Positions 5,576 to 12,649 of a stretch of 64,000 bases of DNA are shown here, piece by piece (position 1 is the first letter of the stretch; each line of letters opens with the position of its first letter). Position numbers and translations under genes: made by a program. Source of the DNA: Pseudomonas sp. FP2309 (GTDB lineage: Bacteria; Pseudomonadota; Gammaproteobacteria; Pseudomonadales; Pseudomonadaceae); the NCBI RefSeq assembly GCF_030687575.1, contig NZ_CP117439.1, positions 4,145,501 to 4,209,500 of the forward strand, in the 5' to 3' direction. Below the pieces are notes generated by a model. It did not search any database and was not told the DNA's origin. It worked only from the letters and a program-made list of their open reading frames with translations.

Positions 5576-7000
5576 TTACAGGTGAAACCGCCCGCCGCCC
5601 TGCCCCAGCGCTGTCGCCAGCGCATCGAAACCGGCCAGCAACAACTGATCATCCCCGGACGTATTACAAATGCTCGCCCGAATAAACTGCGGCACAGCCG
5701 TCTGCCCGACGGCGAACGCTTCGGCGGTGGCGATCAGGTAGTTGTTCTGCTTGAGCTCCGCCTCGATTTCCGACGCACGCCACGGCTCCGGTACTTCAAT
5801 CCAAAAGTGCGGGCTGTTGAGGTGCGTGCGGTATTCCAAGCCCGCCAGCAGGTCACGCACCAGGGCCTTGCGCCGGCTGATCTCGTTGATCTGCTGACGC
5901 AACAGGTACTCGGCCGTGCCGTTCTCGATCCATTGCGTGGCCAGTTCCAGAGTGACCGGGGTCGCCATCCAGCAGGTTGACCGCAGGGCCGCCGAAATCC
6001 GGCTGACCAACGCCGGAGGTGCATGCACGTAACCCACGCGAAGCCCGGCGGACACCGCCTTGCTCAGGCTGCTGATTAAAATCGTACGTTCGGGGGCGAA
6101 ATGGCTCAGGGGCGGCGGACGGTCCTCCACCAGTACCCCGTGGGCTTCATCCTCAAGAATCAGCAGGTTGTGTTCGCGGCACACCCTGACCAGCGCTTCG
6201 CGGCGCGTCACCGAAAGCACCGCCGTGGTGGGGTTCTGGATCGTCGGCGTGCAATACAACGCCGAAATCCGGTGGTTACGACAGACTTCATCCAGCGCGC
6301 TCGGCAGCACGCCCTCTTCATCCATCTCCAGGCCGATCAAACGAATGCCGAGCATGCGCGCGGCGGTTATCAGGCCTGGGTAAGTGAGTTGCTCGGTGAC
6401 CACGGTATCCCCGGCGCGCAACAGCGCCATCATCGCGCACAACAGCCCGTGCTGGCCGCCGTTGACGCAAATCACCTGCTCGGGGATCGGATGAAAATCA
6501 CGCTGCACCAGCCACTGCGCGCCGGCCTCGCGGTAGCGCGGCAGGCCGGCATCCGGCGTGTAGGCGCTGATGTCCTGGAGGAACTTGGCGTTGGTCGCCA
6601 GGGTTTGGAAGCTCTGGGCCAGGAAGGTCGTTTCCTGCCCTGGGATATGCATGTTACGGCTCATATCGAAGTACTGGCGCGGCTCCTCGCTGACGTTGCG
6701 AAAACCTTCGTCGCGCTGGCGCTCCATCCCACGCTTGCGCACGAATGTACCGTCACCGACCCGGGCGACTACCAACCCCAGGCGTTCCAGTTCGCCGTAG
6801 GCCCGGCTTATGGTGCCGATGGTCACACCCAGGTTGTCGGAAAGCACCCGATGGGGCGGCAATTTTCGTCCCGGTTCAATCAAGCCTTCGAGGATGCCGC
6901 GTTCCATGACATCGGACAGGCGCTTGTACTTGACGCCCTGCCCGTTGGACAACCCCTCACGCATAATTGACACCATGTCAATATTTGTTTTGACAGCCAT
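5576..7000 (-). CDS. MocR-type transcriptional regulator (GntR DNA-binding domain fused to aminotransferase-like domain)
   Basis: A 474-residue protein. Residues about 20-90 form a GntR winged helix (GRKLPPHRVLSDNLGVTIGT, ISRAYGELERLGLVV). The remainder is a fold-I PLP aminotransferase-like domain, with SSLSKAVSAGLRVGY carrying the expected PLP lysine. Regulators of this class sense an amino-acid- or PLP-related ligand. The gene is divergent from the exporter/sulfur-carrier operon at 7104-12649, and three GTTCAAT direct repeats lie between them, so it is the likely activator or repressor of that operon. The ligand is unknown; cysteine, O-acetylserine or the operon's product would fit. Confidence 0.92.
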   Translation of the reverse strand: MAVKTNIDMVSIMREGLSNGQGVKYKRLSDVMERGILEGLIEPGRKLPPHRVLSDNLGVTIGTISRAYGELERLGLVVARVGDGTFVRKRGMERQRDEGFRNVSEEPRQYFDMSRNMHIPGQETTFLAQSFQTLATNAKFLQDISAYTPDAGLPRYREAGAQWLVQRDFHPIPEQVICVNGGQHGLLCAMMALLRAGDTVVTEQLTYPGLITAARMLGIRLIGLEMDEEGVLPSALDEVCRNHRISALYCTPTIQNPTTAVLSVTRREALVRVCREHNLLILEDEAHGVLVEDRPPPLSHFAPERTILISSLSKAVSAGLRVGYVHAPPALVSRISAALRSTCWMATPVTLELATQWIENGTAEYLLRQQINEISRRKALVRDLLAGLEYRTHLNSPHFWIEVPEPWRASEIEAELKQNNYLIATAEAFAVGQTAVPQFIRASICNTSGDDQLLLAGFDALATALGQGGGRFHL

Positions 7001-7103: not shown

Positions 7104-8054
7104 ATGCCAATGTCCGCCGTTGTCGAAAACACCGCCAAAATCAAAACTCAAAAACAGTGGTTGGCCGGGCTGGTCACCAGTGTGATGTTCCTGATCGTGT
7201 GCCTGAGCTGGGGGACTACGTGGCTGGGGATCAAAATTGCCGTAGAGAGCGTCCCACCGCTCACCTCCGCCGGCCTGCGCTTTCTGATCGCTTTCCCGCT
7301 GTTCCTGTGTTTTGCCATGGTGCGCCGCGAGCCCATCCTGTTTCCCCGCGAAAGTCGCTGGTTCTTCGTGTTCGTCACCCTGTCGTATTTCAGCGTGCCG
7401 TACTACCTGCTCAACTACGGTGAGATGCATGTCTCATCCGGCCTCACCGCCCTGCTGTTCAGCTGCATGCCGGTGTTTATCCTGATCTTCTCCGCGTTAT
7501 TCCTGCGCGAGCGCATTTACTTCTCACAGGTGGTCGGTATCGGCATCGGCTTCGGCAGCCTCTACATGATCATCAAGAGCCAGGGCCTGCACCTGGATCA
7601 CGCGGAGTTCTTCGGCGTCCTGGCAATCCTGACCGCCGCCGTCATGCACGCCTTGTGCTACGTCATCACCAAACAGAAAGGCAGCGCCATCAGCGTCATC
7701 ACCTACAACACCCTGCCCATCGGCATTGCCGGGTTGATGCTGTTCGTGGCTGGCCTGTGGTTCGAGACGCCGGCCTTTGAAAACATCACCCTGCGCTCCT
7801 GGAGTGCGCTGGTCTACCTGGGGCTGGTGGCCTCGGTGGGCGGGTTCATCGTGTACTTCATGCTGCTCAAGCGCTTGAGCCCGATCATCCTGTCATTCGT
7901 GTTCATCATCTTCCCAGTGTTCGCGGTGATCATCGGCGCCTGGTACGAAGGCGTGGAGATTTCCCGCGACCTGATGCTGTACTCGGCCGTCCTGCTGGCC
8001 GGTTTTGCAATCACCAAGTTGCCCATCGAAAAACTCATGGCCAAGAAAAATTGA
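7104..8054 (+). CDS. EamA/DMT-superfamily exporter
   Basis: A 316-residue integral membrane protein with about ten hydrophobic helices and duplicated EamA architecture (LSWGTTWLGIKIA near the N-terminus; second half from FFGVLAILTAAVMHALCYVI). It is the first gene of the operon and lies 38 bp upstream of the fusion protein. E. coli EamA (YdeD) exports cysteine and O-acetylserine, which fits a neighbourhood of cysteine-synthase and serine-acetyltransferase homologues. The substrate here is inferred, not shown. Confidence 0.85.
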   Translation: MPMSAVVENTAKIKTQKQWLAGLVTSVMFLIVCLSWGTTWLGIKIAVESVPPLTSAGLRFLIAFPLFLCFAMVRREPILFPRESRWFFVFVTLSYFSVPYYLLNYGEMHVSSGLTALLFSCMPVFILIFSALFLRERIYFSQVVGIGIGFGSLYMIIKSQGLHLDHAEFFGVLAILTAAVMHALCYVITKQKGSAISVITYNTLPIGIAGLMLFVAGLWFETPAFENITLRSWSALVYLGLVASVGGFIVYFMLLKRLSPIILSFVFIIFPVFAVIIGAWYEGVEISRDLMLYSAVLLAGFAITKLPIEKLMAKKN

Positions 8055-8092: not shown

Positions 8093-9955
8093 ATGGACGT
8101 GCTCCGCCCCGAAGCCCTGGAACAGATTTACGCCCACGCCAGCCGCAGCTATCCCGAGGAATGCTGTGGCTTCGTCTTCGCCGACGGCAGCGTGTACCTG
8201 GGCTGCAATATCCAGAATGAACTGCACCGCAAGAACCCCGAGATGTACCCGCGCAGCGCGGCCAATGGCTACACCTTTTCCGTGGCCGACACCCTGCTGC
8301 TGAACAAGGCGTTTCGCAGCGACAACCCGGTGGTGGTGATCTACCACTCCCACCCGGACGTCGGCGCCTATTTCAGCGATGAAGACCAGGACAAGGCCCT
8401 GTTCATGGGCGAACCGATCTACCCGGTGAGCTACCTGGTGGTCGATGTTCGCCAGGGCCAGGCCCTGGGCTCCAAGCTGTTTGCCTGGGATGGCAAGCAT
8501 TTCGCCCTCACCCCTTTCAACGACCTGCACACGGAGTTGTCCATGAACGCTGTTTCTTTCCCCGATATCCTGGTTCGTGTGGCCAAGCTGCCGGAATCGA
8601 CCCTTAAGGGCACCGGATCGACACTGCGCGAAGTCATGGAAAACCTCTGCAGCAGCCACCCGCAGTTGCGTCAGCATCTGTTTCACGAGAACAACAACCA
8701 GCTCAAGGAGCACTTCCTGTTTACCGCCGAGCAAGCGCTGATCGACGCGGATGAACCCTTGCCGGAAAAAACCAGAATCGAAGTGCTGCTCGCAACATCA
8801 GGCGGCATCGACGTCGACAGTTTGAGCAATGAAGAAGTCCAGCGCTATGTGCGCCACATCACCCTGCCCGGGGTCGGCCGCGAAGGCCAGTTGAACCTCA
8901 AAAAAGCCAAGGTGCTGATCATCGGCACCGGCGGTCTGGGATCGCCCATCAGCCTGTATCTGGCGGCAGCCGGCATTGGCACCCTGGGCCTGGTGGATTT
9001 CGACGTGGTGGAAAGCAGCAACCTGCAGCGCCAGATCGTCCACGGCAATAGCACGCTGGGCATGCCCAAGGTCGAGTCCGCCAAGCAGCGTTTGCAGGAC
9101 CTCAACCGTCACATCCAGATCAACGCCCACGACACCGCCTTGAATGCCGACAATGCCCTGGAACTGGTGGACGCCTATGACCTGGTGATCGATGGCACGG
9201 ACAATTTCGACACCCGCTACCTGGTCAACGACGCCTGCGTACAGCTGGACAAGCCCTTGGTGTACGGCGCCATCTACCGTTTCGACGGGCAGATCAGCGT
9301 GCTCAACTACAAAGGCGGGCCGTGCTACCGCTGCCTGTTCCCCCAGGCACCGCCGGCGGAACTGGCGCCCAATTGCAGCGCCGGTGGCGTGATCGGCGTG
9401 CTGCCGGGGGTGGTGGGGATGATCCAGGCCACTGAAGCGATCAAATTGCTGATCGGCATCGGCGAGCCGCTGTCGGGGCGCCTGATGCGGTTTGATGCGT
9501 TGGCGATGAAGTTCAGCGAGATCCGCTTCAAGCGCCGCGCCGATTGCCCGTGCTGTTCAGAGTTGCGGCACAGTGAAACCGTCGCGCCGGCGGTCTGCGC
9601 CGACAAGATGCCGAGTGTTCCGTCATTGGCAGAAGAGCGCTACATCAAGCCACGGGCACTCAAGCAATTGCTCGAACACCCGCGCAGTGCCGACGTGTTG
9701 CTGGACGTGCGCGACGCCAGCGAACTGGAGGTGTGCAAGTTACCAGGCGTGGTGCATATCCCCCTGGATGAGCTGGACGGGCAACTCGACCGCCTCAGCC
9801 GCGACAGCACTCACTACCTGATCTGCTATGCCGGCACCCGCGCCGAACGGGCCGCCAGCACGCTGCTGGCCGCCGGGTTCGCCAACACCAAAGTGCTGCA
9901 AGGCGGCATGAAGCACTGGGTGCGCGACGTCGAACCCGACATGCCGTTGTACTGA
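8093..9955 (+). CDS. Four-domain fusion: JAMM protease - ubiquitin-like sulfur carrier - MoeB/ThiF-type E1 - rhodanese
   Basis: A 620-residue protein joining four parts of a sulfur-relay system. Residues 1-145 are a JAMM/MPN+ metalloprotease: a conserved Glu in PEECCGF (22-23) and HSHPDVGAYFSDED, giving His85, His87, Ser95 and Asp98. Residues about 151-238 fit a beta-grasp sulfur carrier ending in ATSGG, with the di-glycine at 237-238 inside the chain. Residues about 245-488 are a MoeB/ThiF adenylating domain: GTGGLG at 278-283, zinc pairs CYRC (411-414) and CPCC (485-488), and PNCSAGG with Cys428. Residues about 515-620 are a rhodanese with active loop CYAGTR, Cys578. Related separate proteins are QbsE/D/C and CysO/Mec/MoeZ. 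The start is ATG 8093; an internal ATG at 8543 has its own GGAG site. Confidence 0.9.
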   Translation: MDVLRPEALEQIYAHASRSYPEECCGFVFADGSVYLGCNIQNELHRKNPEMYPRSAANGYTFSVADTLLLNKAFRSDNPVVVIYHSHPDVGAYFSDEDQDKALFMGEPIYPVSYLVVDVRQGQALGSKLFAWDGKHFALTPFNDLHTELSMNAVSFPDILVRVAKLPESTLKGTGSTLREVMENLCSSHPQLRQHLFHENNNQLKEHFLFTAEQALIDADEPLPEKTRIEVLLATSGGIDVDSLSNEEVQRYVRHITLPGVGREGQLNLKKAKVLIIGTGGLGSPISLYLAAAGIGTLGLVDFDVVESSNLQRQIVHGNSTLGMPKVESAKQRLQDLNRHIQINAHDTALNADNALELVDAYDLVIDGTDNFDTRYLVNDACVQLDKPLVYGAIYRFDGQISVLNYKGGPCYRCLFPQAPPAELAPNCSAGGVIGVLPGVVGMIQATEAIKLLIGIGEPLSGRLMRFDALAMKFSEIRFKRRADCPCCSELRHSETVAPAVCADKMPSVPSLAEERYIKPRALKQLLEHPRSADVLLDVRDASELEVCKLPGVVHIPLDELDGQLDRLSRDSTHYLICYAGTRAERAASTLLAAGFANTKVLQGGMKHWVRDVEPDMPLY

Positions 9956-9970
9956 TCCGGGGGCTGACTG

Positions 9971-10885
9971 ATGCTGCATAACTCAATCCTCGATGTCATC
10001 GGCGACACACCCATCGTGCGCCTGACGCAGTTCTCCGAAGACCTCGGCATCGAGGTCTACGCCAAGCTCGAATCACTCAACCCAGGCGGCAGCCACAAGG
10101 CGCGCATCGCCTTGGCCATGATCCTCGACGCCGAGCGCCGGGGCGTGCTGATCCGCGATTCCGGGCAAACCATCATCGAACCCAGCGGCGGCAACACCGG
10201 CATAGGCCTGGTCATGGCCGGCAATGTGCTGGGCTACAAGGTGGTGCTGGTGATTCCCGACAACTACAGCCCCGAGAAGCAAAAGCTGCTGCGGTTGTAC
10301 GGGGCCAAGGTGGTGCTGTCCGACAGCCGTCTCGGCAACAACTCCCATGGCGAAAAATGCATGGAGCTGCAACTGGAAAACCCGAGCTACGTGATGCTCA
10401 ACCAGCAACGCAACGGCGCCAACCCACAGACCCATCGCGACACCACCGCGCCGGAAATCATCCGCGCCTTTGGCAAGCGCCGCGTGGACTACTTCGTGTC
10501 CGGCATCGGCACCGGTGGCCATATCACCGGTATCGGCGAAACACTCAAGACCCACTGGCCGGCCATCCGCGTGATGGGCGTGGAGCCCGAAGAGTGTGAC
10601 CTGCTGAAAAACCAGCATGCGCCGCACCATATCCAGGGCCTGTCGATTGGCGTGATTCCAAGCATCCTCAACCTGGATATGATCGACGGCATGCTCAAGG
10701 TCTCGCGCCAGGACTGCATCGACATGATCAAACGCATCATGCGCACCGACGCCATCAGCCTGGGCCTGTCCTCCGCCGCCAATATGGTGGCCATCGCCAG
10801 GCTCGCCCCCGAACTACCGCCCGAAACGGTGGTGTTGACCATGGTCTATGACAATGCCGACAGCTACCTGCCCAGCTTCGAATAA
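9971..10885 (+). CDS. Cysteine-synthase-family PLP enzyme (CysK/CysM-like)
   Basis: A 304-residue fold-II PLP enzyme. The PLP lysine is K43 in NPGGSHKAR, where most cysteine synthases have S(I/V)KDR. The substrate loop reads EPSGGNTGIGL instead of the usual PTSGNTG. The phosphate-binding GIGTGGHITGIG is intact. It should catalyse beta-replacement on an activated serine. Next to a sulfur-carrier/E1 fusion, the sulfur donor could be a protein thiocarboxylate, as in the mycobacterial CysM-CysO pathway. The deviating loops leave room for another substrate, for example a diaminopropionate-type reaction. It starts 15 bp after the fusion gene. Confidence 0.85.
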   Translation: MLHNSILDVIGDTPIVRLTQFSEDLGIEVYAKLESLNPGGSHKARIALAMILDAERRGVLIRDSGQTIIEPSGGNTGIGLVMAGNVLGYKVVLVIPDNYSPEKQKLLRLYGAKVVLSDSRLGNNSHGEKCMELQLENPSYVMLNQQRNGANPQTHRDTTAPEIIRAFGKRRVDYFVSGIGTGGHITGIGETLKTHWPAIRVMGVEPEECDLLKNQHAPHHIQGLSIGVIPSILNLDMIDGMLKVSRQDCIDMIKRIMRTDAISLGLSSAANMVAIARLAPELPPETVVLTMVYDNADSYLPSFE

Positions 10886-10922
10886 CCGGTTTTCCAACGA
10901 TCCAGAATGCGGGGGTGCCTCA

Positions 10923-11915
10923 ATGGGCGGCTTTATCGACATGCAACAGCTGCACGATGAGTTGCTCACCCATCTCATCAAGACACTCACGCCCGCGCAG
11001 ATGAAGCAACTGGAACCGCACCTGGCACCGTTGATCCAGAACGCGGCGCAGGCAGTGGCCGAGGACCTGATTGCCTATGCCTACCGCGACCCGGCGTCCC
11101 GAGGGCGCGGCGAGCTGATCCTGGAATCCTACGCCTCGTTCAAGGCGGTGTTGTATTACCGGCTCGCGCACCTGGTGTGGAATTTTCCCGAACAGACCAA
11201 CGCCATGTTCTCGCGCATTGCCCTCAAGCTCAGCAACCAAGGCAAGGTGCTGTCCGGTGCAGAAATTCACCCCGCGGCGCGAATCGGCCGGCGCTTTGTG
11301 CTGGACCACGGTTACGGCACGGTGATCGGTGAAACCTGTGAGATCGGCAACGACTGCTACATCCTTTGCGGCGTGACCCTGGGCGCCCGTGGCATTGCCA
11401 ACAACCCGGACGGCAAGCGCCACCCGCGCTTGGGCAATAACGTCGAAGTCGGCTCCGGTGCCCGGGTGCTGGGCTATGTGCAGATCGGCGATAACGTTTT
11501 TATCAGCCCTTCGTGCGTGATTACCCAGGACGTGCCCGCGGGGACCAAGGTCAAGGTGGTCAACCAGATCCAACTGCAAAAAAACGACGAGTCCGACCAC
11601 AGCAACTACCTCGGTGCCTTTGCTCTGGATGAGCGCCTGCATGTGGTCGGCGAGATCAATGCCAGTCACAAGGTCACGGTGCTCGATGCCGACTTTCACC
11701 CTTTGCCGGGGGTGATGCTCGAACCGACGGTGAAAGAGCGTCACCACCTGCAGTTTCGCCTTCATCGTGTTGAGTCAGCCAACCACCTGCCGCGCCTGCC
11801 GCTGAACCTGAAAGTCTGCGGCCCCGAATTTGAAATCACTCTGCTCTCGCCACCTGGCTTGAGTGCAATGGTGCGTCACCTGCTGCAAGCCAGCCCACTG
11901 ATCGTCGGAGGTTGA
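10923..11915 (+). CDS. Serine acetyltransferase-like protein with a C-terminal extension
   Basis: A 330-residue protein. Residues about 40-215 match serine O-acetyltransferase: a helical N-terminal part and a left-handed beta-helix with hexapeptide repeats (GAEIHPAARIGRRFVLDHG, ETCEIGNDCYILCGVTLG, VEVGSGARVLGYVQIGDN). His129 in LDHGYGTVIGET is the likely catalytic base. Residues about 222-330 are an additional domain that I do not recognise and that CysE does not have. ATG at 10923 is chosen because it follows the end of the cysteine-synthase gene by 37 bp. It would supply O-acetylserine to the upstream enzyme. Confidence 0.82.
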   Translation: MGGFIDMQQLHDELLTHLIKTLTPAQMKQLEPHLAPLIQNAAQAVAEDLIAYAYRDPASRGRGELILESYASFKAVLYYRLAHLVWNFPEQTNAMFSRIALKLSNQGKVLSGAEIHPAARIGRRFVLDHGYGTVIGETCEIGNDCYILCGVTLGARGIANNPDGKRHPRLGNNVEVGSGARVLGYVQIGDNVFISPSCVITQDVPAGTKVKVVNQIQLQKNDESDHSNYLGAFALDERLHVVGEINASHKVTVLDADFHPLPGVMLEPTVKERHHLQFRLHRVESANHLPRLPLNLKVCGPEFEITLLSPPGLSAMVRHLLQASPLIVGG

Positions 11916-11917
11916 AT

Positions 11918-12649
11918 ATGTCCGTGCACACCATGGAAACCCTGGCGCTGTTCGACAGCGCGCCCTACCAGAACGCGTTCAGCGCCCGGGTGATTGCCAT
12001 CAGCGAACACGGCATTGCTCTGGAGCACACGCTGTTCTACCCCACCGGCGGCGGGCAGCCAGGGGACACTGGCCACTTGACCTTGCCTGATGGCACGCGG
12101 GTGGAAGTGACCGGCACCGTGCGCGACCCGGTGCTGCGTTCGATCATCTGGCACCAGGTGGAACATTGCCCGGAGCAATTGACCAGCGGCGTGCAGGTAG
12201 ACGCAGGCCTGAACTGGGAACGTCGCTACCAGCACATGAAAATGCATACCTGCCTGCACCTGCTGTGCTCAATCATCGACGCGCCGGTGACCGGTTGCAG
12301 CATCAGTGCAGACAAAGGTCGCCTGGATTTCGACCTGCCGGAAATGACCCTCGATAAAGAAACGATCACCCACGACCTCAACGCGCTGATCGAGCAGGCC
12401 CATCAGGTCAATACCCTGTCGATGCCTGCCTCGGAATACGCCACCCTGCTGCAGATCACCCGCACCCAGGCGGTTGCACCGCCGGTGATCCAGGGCTCGG
12501 TAAGGGTGATTGAAATTGCCGGGATCGATATCCAGCCATGCGGCGGCACCCATGTGCTCAATACCGAAGAAATCGGCCGGGTGTTCTGCGAGAAAATCGA
12601 GAAGAAGAGCAAGCACAACCGCCGTGTAATCCTGCGGTTTGAGGGATAA
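11918..12649 (+). CDS. AlaX-type alanyl-tRNA editing domain protein
   Basis: A 243-residue stand-alone AlaX-like hydrolase. It has both zinc-binding halves: HTCLH in HMKMHTCLHLL and CGGTH near the C-terminus. An N-terminal PTGGGQPGDTG segment identifies the second-additional-domain-like fold. Family members deacylate Ser- or Gly-tRNA(Ala). ATG at 11918 has GGAGG six bases upstream, and the gap after the previous stop codon is 2 bp, so it is translationally linked to the acetyltransferase gene. Its presence suggests that the operon raises a serine-like amino acid that can be mischarged. Confidence 0.88.
   Translation: MSVHTMETLALFDSAPYQNAFSARVIAISEHGIALEHTLFYPTGGGQPGDTGHLTLPDGTRVEVTGTVRDPVLRSIIWHQVEHCPEQLTSGVQVDAGLNWERRYQHMKMHTCLHLLCSIIDAPVTGCSISADKGRLDFDLPEMTLDKETITHDLNALIEQAHQVNTLSMPASEYATLLQITRTQAVAPPVIQGSVRVIEIAGIDIQPCGGTHVLNTEEIGRVFCEKIEKKSKHNRRVILRFEG

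Follow-up and report, generated by a model that had tools for sequence, protein, structure and literature searches.

Within the 64,000-nucleotide stretch of Pseudomonas sp. FP2309 DNA that we analyzed (the window), a single gene on the + strand (8093..9955) codes for a 620-residue product in which a JAMM metalloprotease, a ubiquitin-like (Ubl) sulfur carrier, an E1-like adenylation domain, and a rhodanese follow one another. The initial annotation had described such a chain, and the description holds: the reading frame is free of stops, the domains are recovered with Pfam, and the active residues are conserved. The gene is preceded on the same strand by an EamA-family transporter, predicted to be a probable exporter (7104..8054), and on the - strand by a divergent MocR-family (GntR-aminotransferase) regulator (5576..7000), both assigned by domain search. 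It is followed on the + strand by genes for a cysteine-synthase-like PLP enzyme (9971..10885), a serine-acetyltransferase-like protein (10848..11915, for which the listed ATG may be upstream of the real start), and an AlaX-like trans-editing protein (11912..12649; HTCLH in 83 of 85 loci and CGGTH in all 85). The full operon (MocR, EamA, JAMM, Ubl-E1-rhodanese, cysteine-synthase-like, serine-acetyltransferase-like, and AlaX) was found in 79 of the 80 loci L006-L085; the exception, L085, keeps EamA but, at the thresholds used, has no rhodanese and none of the genes downstream of it, AlaX included. The serine-acetyltransferase-like gene retains VLDHG and KRHP in 84/84 loci, and the PLP enzyme carries an invariant EPSGGNTG loop (10178-10201; 136/136 loci) where the closest solved enzyme has EPTSGNTG, a change which may reflect a different substrate or sulfur donor. 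No E2-like gene was found among the operon genes scanned, and no separate carrier gene was found in the operon either among ORFs of at least 70 aa or with the ThiS model; the two further ThiS/MoaD-type carriers that this model recovers in the source genome both lie outside the operon. A PLP cysteine synthase, a carrier, and a JAMM share one cluster, as in the Mec/CysO/CysM type, and the conserved operon content suggests that the carrier serves in making cysteine or a related thiol.

The JAMM/Prok-JAB domain spans residues 7-119 (8111..8449, + strand; Pfam PF14464, 5.6e-16, a score above the cut-off; structure match 2kcq, E 1.6e-9). It has the sequence features of the JAMM/MPN+ class, namely a glutamate (Glu23, 8159-8161) plus the motif HSH-x7-S-x2-D at residues 85-98 (8345..8386, + strand), and the set E23/H85/S86/H87/S95/D98 is intact in 138/138 loci scored. 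The E1-like MoeB/ThiF domain, residues 252-487 (8846..9553, + strand; Pfam ThiF, 2e-82), retains cysteines 411/414/428/485/488 in 135 of 138 loci, the last two being without an aligned residue in the other three. In the rhodanese domain, residues 522-611 (9656..9925, + strand; Pfam, 4.4e-14), the active Cys578 (9824-9826) and Arg583 are conserved in 136/136 loci; all these catalytic-residue counts are of loci that were not deduplicated and include broken copies. A ThiF domain with zinc cysteines and a C-terminal rhodanese with an active cysteine are the hallmarks of MoeZ-type E1-rhodaneses, and this part of the chain reaches the PRK05690 subfamily cut-off and falls short of the NCBIfam MoeB/MoeZ equivalog cut-offs. 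The predicted model of the full-length chain is too weak (pLDDT 73, pTM 0.58, with JAMM part blocks at pLDDT 38-60) to serve as a guide to how the domains are arranged or how far the JAMM reaches in cis, and within it residues 236-244 fall below pLDDT 50, so this linker may be flexible.

Chance or misassembly as the source of the fusion is ruled out by its single origin (support 100/98) and by its presence, intact, in 105 loci with 79 distinct products, even though some of these loci repeat a genome (the source genome, for example, is counted twice). Interrupted carrier, E1, or rhodanese ORFs were found at L017, L058, L071, L078, L085/L155, L156 (at the Gly-Gly), and L159, which suggests either that the system is dispensable and decays or that some of the assemblies are faulty.

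The initial annotation had let its interpretation hang on residues 151-238 having a beta-grasp fold (8543..8806, + strand), and the prediction agrees with it. The model of residues 151-240 has a mean pLDDT of 90.8 and, among PDB structures, matches best with SAMP1 (3po0, E 2e-6), CysO bound to BexX (4n6e_B, 9.6e-6), and the CysO of M. tuberculosis (3dwg_C, 1.2e-5). The Pfam ThiS profile matches this piece at E 7e-4 with 20.5 bits, below the curated 22.5, and 23 of the 45 members of our alignment A2 match it at E <= 0.01 (best 3.5e-9). Only 12 of the 90 columns of the piece are invariant in A2, including A84, S86, G87, and G88 in the numbering of the 90-residue piece, and most other positions vary.

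The same cannot be said of the Gly237-Gly238 pair (8801..8806, + strand), the predicted site of JAMM cutting (after Gly238) and of thiocarboxylation. Conservation of this pair among orthologues of the same architecture was the other point on which the earlier interpretation depended, and the pair is present in 117/117 proteins (65/65 long ones and 52/52 of 460-480 aa) in a set made up of the query P0001 and the best 120 of 8000 matches, with 4 of the 121 in neither size class. LATSGG is kept in 79/79 distinct fused products and in 18/18 distinct intact split products, and ATSGG still precedes the E1 at L159, a distant gammaproteobacterium with a carrier identity of 28%, while the residue after Gly238 is variable (Met, Ile, Leu, Thr, Ser, or Val). 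When 369 genomes from the class were searched, the 18 with a match comprised the source genome, the L159 fusion, L096 (where the matching ORF is an E1-rhodanese), and 15 with stand-alone small proteins from other Gammaproteobacteria. These stand-alone carriers match weakly (E 6e-9 to 4e-6), and 15/15 end exactly at the aligned second glycine (ALSGG), so Gly238 is most likely the natural C-terminus of the carrier; they mark the position of that C-terminus rather than JAMM cutting at this site. In 6/6 loci viewed of the 15, the stand-alone ALSGG carrier has a different neighbor, a conserved 362-414-aa protein with TRKG near its N-terminus (L088, L090, L092, L098, L101, and L103).

Two further ideas concerning the Gly-Gly were set aside. 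That a JAMM occurs only where the carrier is locked was not supported, as PF14464 is matched at E <= 0.001 in 17/17 genomes searched, 10 of them over the cut-off, and 15 of these genomes carry stand-alone carriers. Genome G544 at L156 had seemed to offer a natural gene split after the Gly-Gly; the frame changes at the second glycine (LATSGERA) and the next ORF has no E1 start, so we regard it as a broken copy and dropped it as proof of processing.

Comparison with split relatives indicates how the long gene arose. At split loci the JAMM is a separate gene of the same locus in 29/29 cases (20 distinct products), as it also is at L159, and altogether the JAMM shares either the ORF or the locus in 138/138 loci scored, plus the distant L159. 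Of 39 representative split homologues of 470-473 aa, 37 start exactly at the position of Met151 and two at 149. L070 and L073 are the closest sister loci with split genes; there, 31 nt separate the end of the JAMM gene from the carrier ATG, and comparison of the junctions revealed that in fused genes the JAMM frame continues through this former intergenic gap, the 3' part of which now codes for part of the linker, residues 137-150 (8501..8542, + strand). A tree of 47 of the 97 distinct rows (29 of the 79 fused products and every one of the 18 split ones) places the fusion at the single origin given above. From these sequences, the carrier-E1-rhodanese fusion is older than the JAMM fusion, and one Pseudomonas clade added the JAMM by reading through the gap. 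A match at E <= 1e-15 occurs in 35 of 199 genomes of the genus and in 32 of 298 of the family. Of 398 genomes of the phylum, 7 match at E <= 1e-6; six belong to the genus, and in one, G1117, the match is interrupted by a stop.

The fusion boundary coincides with Met151, an old gene start that has kept its ribosome-binding site, a feature which the initial annotation had missed. A Shine-Dalgarno-like (SD-like) GGAG (8533..8536, + strand) lies 6 nt before the internal ATG, and both are kept in 79/79 distinct fused genes (all 105 fused loci); the spacing is 6 nt in 77/77 aligned genes, and the location is the same as that of the ribosome-binding site of split genes. Six methionine columns are conserved, and Met151 alone among them has an SD-like 4-mer in 77/77 rows, the others having one in 0-4 of 77; of all ATGs on the two strands of the window, 4.0 and 4.8% are preceded by such a motif. 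Codons 142-157 (8516..8563, + strand), which span the internal start, have the lowest synonymous variation in the gene, with the 6-codon windows starting at codons 147 and 148 at 0.03 bits against a mean of 0.69 (489 conserved columns). This synonymous entropy was computed from 92 of the 105 fused loci (13 left out), 77 of them distinct, and the single-codon Met151 scores zero by necessity. Speaking against an internal start, a second trough at codons 174-183 (8612-8641), inside the carrier, is not explained by the start site alone, and the annotated JAMM start has neither a comparable synonymous constraint (60 loci) nor an SD as defined for the methionine columns. The start of the PLP-enzyme gene was considered as a constraint control and was left unused, its pattern having matched 21 of 63 loci. 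An old ribosome-binding site and ATG kept within the least synonymously variable stretch of the gene indicate that it probably gives two nested products, of 620 and 470 aa, the second being a JAMM-less Ubl-E1-rhodanese starting at Met151 (8543..9955, + strand), predicted from the starts of split homologues and the conserved methionine with its SD.

The Gly-Gly lies inside the gene product though it aligns with stand-alone C-termini, and the carrier is joined C-terminally to another enzyme through it, as in chains of the MoaX and DR2607 type. In MoeB/MoaD chemistry the E1 adenylates a free C-terminal carboxylate, so that the fused Gly238 must first be released if the domain is a carrier. The beta-grasp fold, the invariant Gly-Gly, the alignment of 15/15 C-termini, and the JAMM at every locus scored make release after Gly238 by the JAMM the best reading. 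We favor, and regard as reasonably likely, a scheme in which one gene gives two nested products and a CysO-type carrier is born locked, is freed by the JAMM, and feeds a cysteine-type synthesis. Translation from Met1 would give the 620-aa JAMM-Ubl-E1-rhodanese, and internal initiation at Met151 the 470-aa Ubl-E1-rhodanese; in both chains Gly238 would sit in an internal peptide bond that the E1 could not adenylate. The JAMM of the 620-aa chain, acting either in trans or in cis, would cleave after Gly238, turning the long chain into a 238-aa JAMM-Ubl and the short chain into a free 88-residue Ubl, with a 382-aa E1-rhodanese released from both. The E1 would then adenylate Gly238, and a rhodanese persulfide on Cys578 would supply the sulfur for a carrier thiocarboxylate, which the cysteine-synthase-like enzyme would use on O-acetylserine made by the acetyltransferase of the operon (CysM uses O-phosphoserine). 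Finally, the JAMM would detach the product, cysteine or a close thio-amino acid, from its carrier, and EamA may export it.

The identity of the product allows for a variant which keeps the carrier mechanism and is compatible with the processing models. In it, a thio-amino acid other than cysteine, one that could be mischarged onto tRNA, would be exported, with AlaX serving as self-protection. The unusual EPSGGNTG loop of the PLP enzyme and the joint presence of EamA and AlaX in nearly every operon speak for it, whereas the VLDHG and KRHP motifs kept in the acetyltransferase-like gene suit plain O-acetylserine and cysteine, and we consider the variant unlikely. An account by strict cis autoprocessing, the model of the initial annotation, in which a 620-aa chain is the sole product and cleaves itself after Gly238 with its own JAMM, is similarly improbable. 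JAMM and carrier do adjoin on one chain, with a possibly flexible linker after the Gly-Gly, but split relatives require cleavage in trans, as their JAMM is a separate protein, and an internal SD and ATG would hardly be expected to persist in every distinct fused gene; cis autoprocessing is possible, though nothing among the split relatives indicates it. Of the self-processing polyprotein proposed by the initial annotation, the carrier fold and the invariant Gly-Gly at the carrier C-terminus stand, while its confinement to a single chain sits poorly with the Met151 start and the separate JAMM of split relatives. A bolder combination, in which a self-activating zymogen is accompanied by a JAMM-less twin, the tethered JAMM releases the product in cis, a non-cysteine thio-amino acid is exported, and AlaX guards translation, seems to us doubtful as a whole; were both starts used and cis release true, the ratio of the starts would set the rate at which the carrier is unlocked.

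A different role is given to the Gly-Gly if the carrier-like domain only docks, so that the E1-rhodanese loads MoaD or ThiS and the glycines form a linker that is never cut. The two ThiS-family carriers elsewhere in the genome might be served by this E1, which makes docking slightly more likely and the favored scheme slightly less so, and a different role has been proposed for N-terminal Ubl-ThiF fusions which co-occur with a separate ThiS (PMC1779556). An invariant ATSGG down to 28% carrier identity is, however, not expected of a linker, stand-alone relatives end exactly at the aligned glycine, and the operon has no separate carrier gene by the searches above, so that we regard docking as decidedly unlikely. 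Protein conjugation of the SAMP/HvJAMM1 kind, with the freed Ubl attached to targets and removed by the JAMM, is very unlikely despite SAMP1 being the best fold match and despite a proposal of this kind for JAB-linked E1s (PMC1779556), as the operon holds cysteine-type metabolic enzymes, the genes scanned include no E2-like gene, and the rhodanese cysteine is invariant.

The favored scheme of a locked, JAMM-freed carrier combines elements known from several systems. In the QbsD/QbsE pair, the JAMM removes the residues after the Gly-Gly of the carrier. From the capped PtmS1/PtmS2-S3 carriers, a JAMM likewise removes, or is thought to remove, the residues after the Gly-Gly (PMC6006322); in both pairs the cap is of 1-2 residues, whereas in the Pseudomonas chain an entire E1 follows. 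MoaX of M. tuberculosis is an internal Gly-Gly carrier that needs cleavage to act, but its partner is MoaE, and in the passages of the source that describe it the protease is neither on the chain nor named (PMC4326299). In D. radiodurans, DRJAMM cuts a linear MoaD-MoaE to leave a C-terminal Gly (PMC8832034, from Yang 2018 and its own assays), yet there the JAMM is a separate protein and the chain is without E1 or rhodanese. A further likeness is with the CysO/CysM/Mec+/MoeZ pathway of M. tuberculosis, parts of which are outlined in PMC12800425 and which also has a CysO-fold carrier, an E1-rhodanese, a cysteine-synthase-like PLP enzyme, and a JAMM. Unlike this pathway, the Pseudomonas carrier is fused to the E1 with an internal Gly-Gly, the operon has its own serine-acetyltransferase-like gene and adds EamA, AlaX, and MocR, and the JAMM is fused in one clade. 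Iyer et al. (2006) had listed P. aeruginosa under operon type 4c (ThiS/MoaD, E1-rhodanese, JAB, and cysteine synthase) and had predicted that JAB proteins free a fused ThiS/MoaD (PMC1779556). The idea of the initial annotation had been published there as a general prediction; neither the single-chain form nor an internal start is mentioned in sections 12 and 16 and the table passages of that paper. Within the open PMC literature, we found no title or abstract on a JAMM-carrier-E1-rhodanese chain or on its internal start. Cleavage of internal Gly-Gly carriers by a JAMM is known in trans, and the all-in-one form with two probable starts is, within that literature, a new variant. It gives the 2006 prediction a simple testable form, as intact, cut, and loaded states of one chain can be distinguished by mass, and it is an example of adjoining operon genes becoming a polyprotein with an old start preserved inside.

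The same row of genes, judged by annotation only, occurs in P. aeruginosa as PA2100-PA2106 (regulator, EamA, JAB, MoeB-like, cysteine synthase, acetyltransferase, and AlaS-domain protein; PMC9431628, PMC9866376, PMC13256707), where, again by annotation, the JAMM (PA2102) and the MoeB-like protein (PA2103) are separate genes, unlike the fusion of FP2309. PA2100 has been called up-regulated by N-acetylcysteine, with PA2101-PA2103 in the same table (PMC9431628), and a table of an RpoH study includes PA2101-PA2104 and PA2106 with fold changes of 2.2-4.3 (PMC9866376). PA2104, a probable cysteine synthase, is described as unstudied so far (PMC12800425) and does not appear in PMC12895370, while PA2105 is recorded as a second acetyltransferase homologue (PMC13256707). 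Our scheme offers a concrete candidate function for this operon, whose genes are labelled MoeB, cysteine synthase, and unknowns.

Other JAMM fusions were also noticed. Six proteins (P0123-P0127 and P0131) have an EamA transporter fused to a JAMM, so the first two genes of the operon are also fused elsewhere. In eight others (P0130 and P0132-P0138), one of them named from Rokubacteria, a JAMM forms the N-terminal part of a fusion with a HemL-like aminotransferase. In P0128 and P0129 (688 aa, glutamate-1-semialdehyde aminotransferase-like), an N-terminal stretch ending in ALAGG precedes the JAMM; our carrier profile A3 has no match in either, both carry a precomputed Pfam ThiS label, and they are possibly an independent chain with a carrier, an internal Gly-Gly, and a JAMM.
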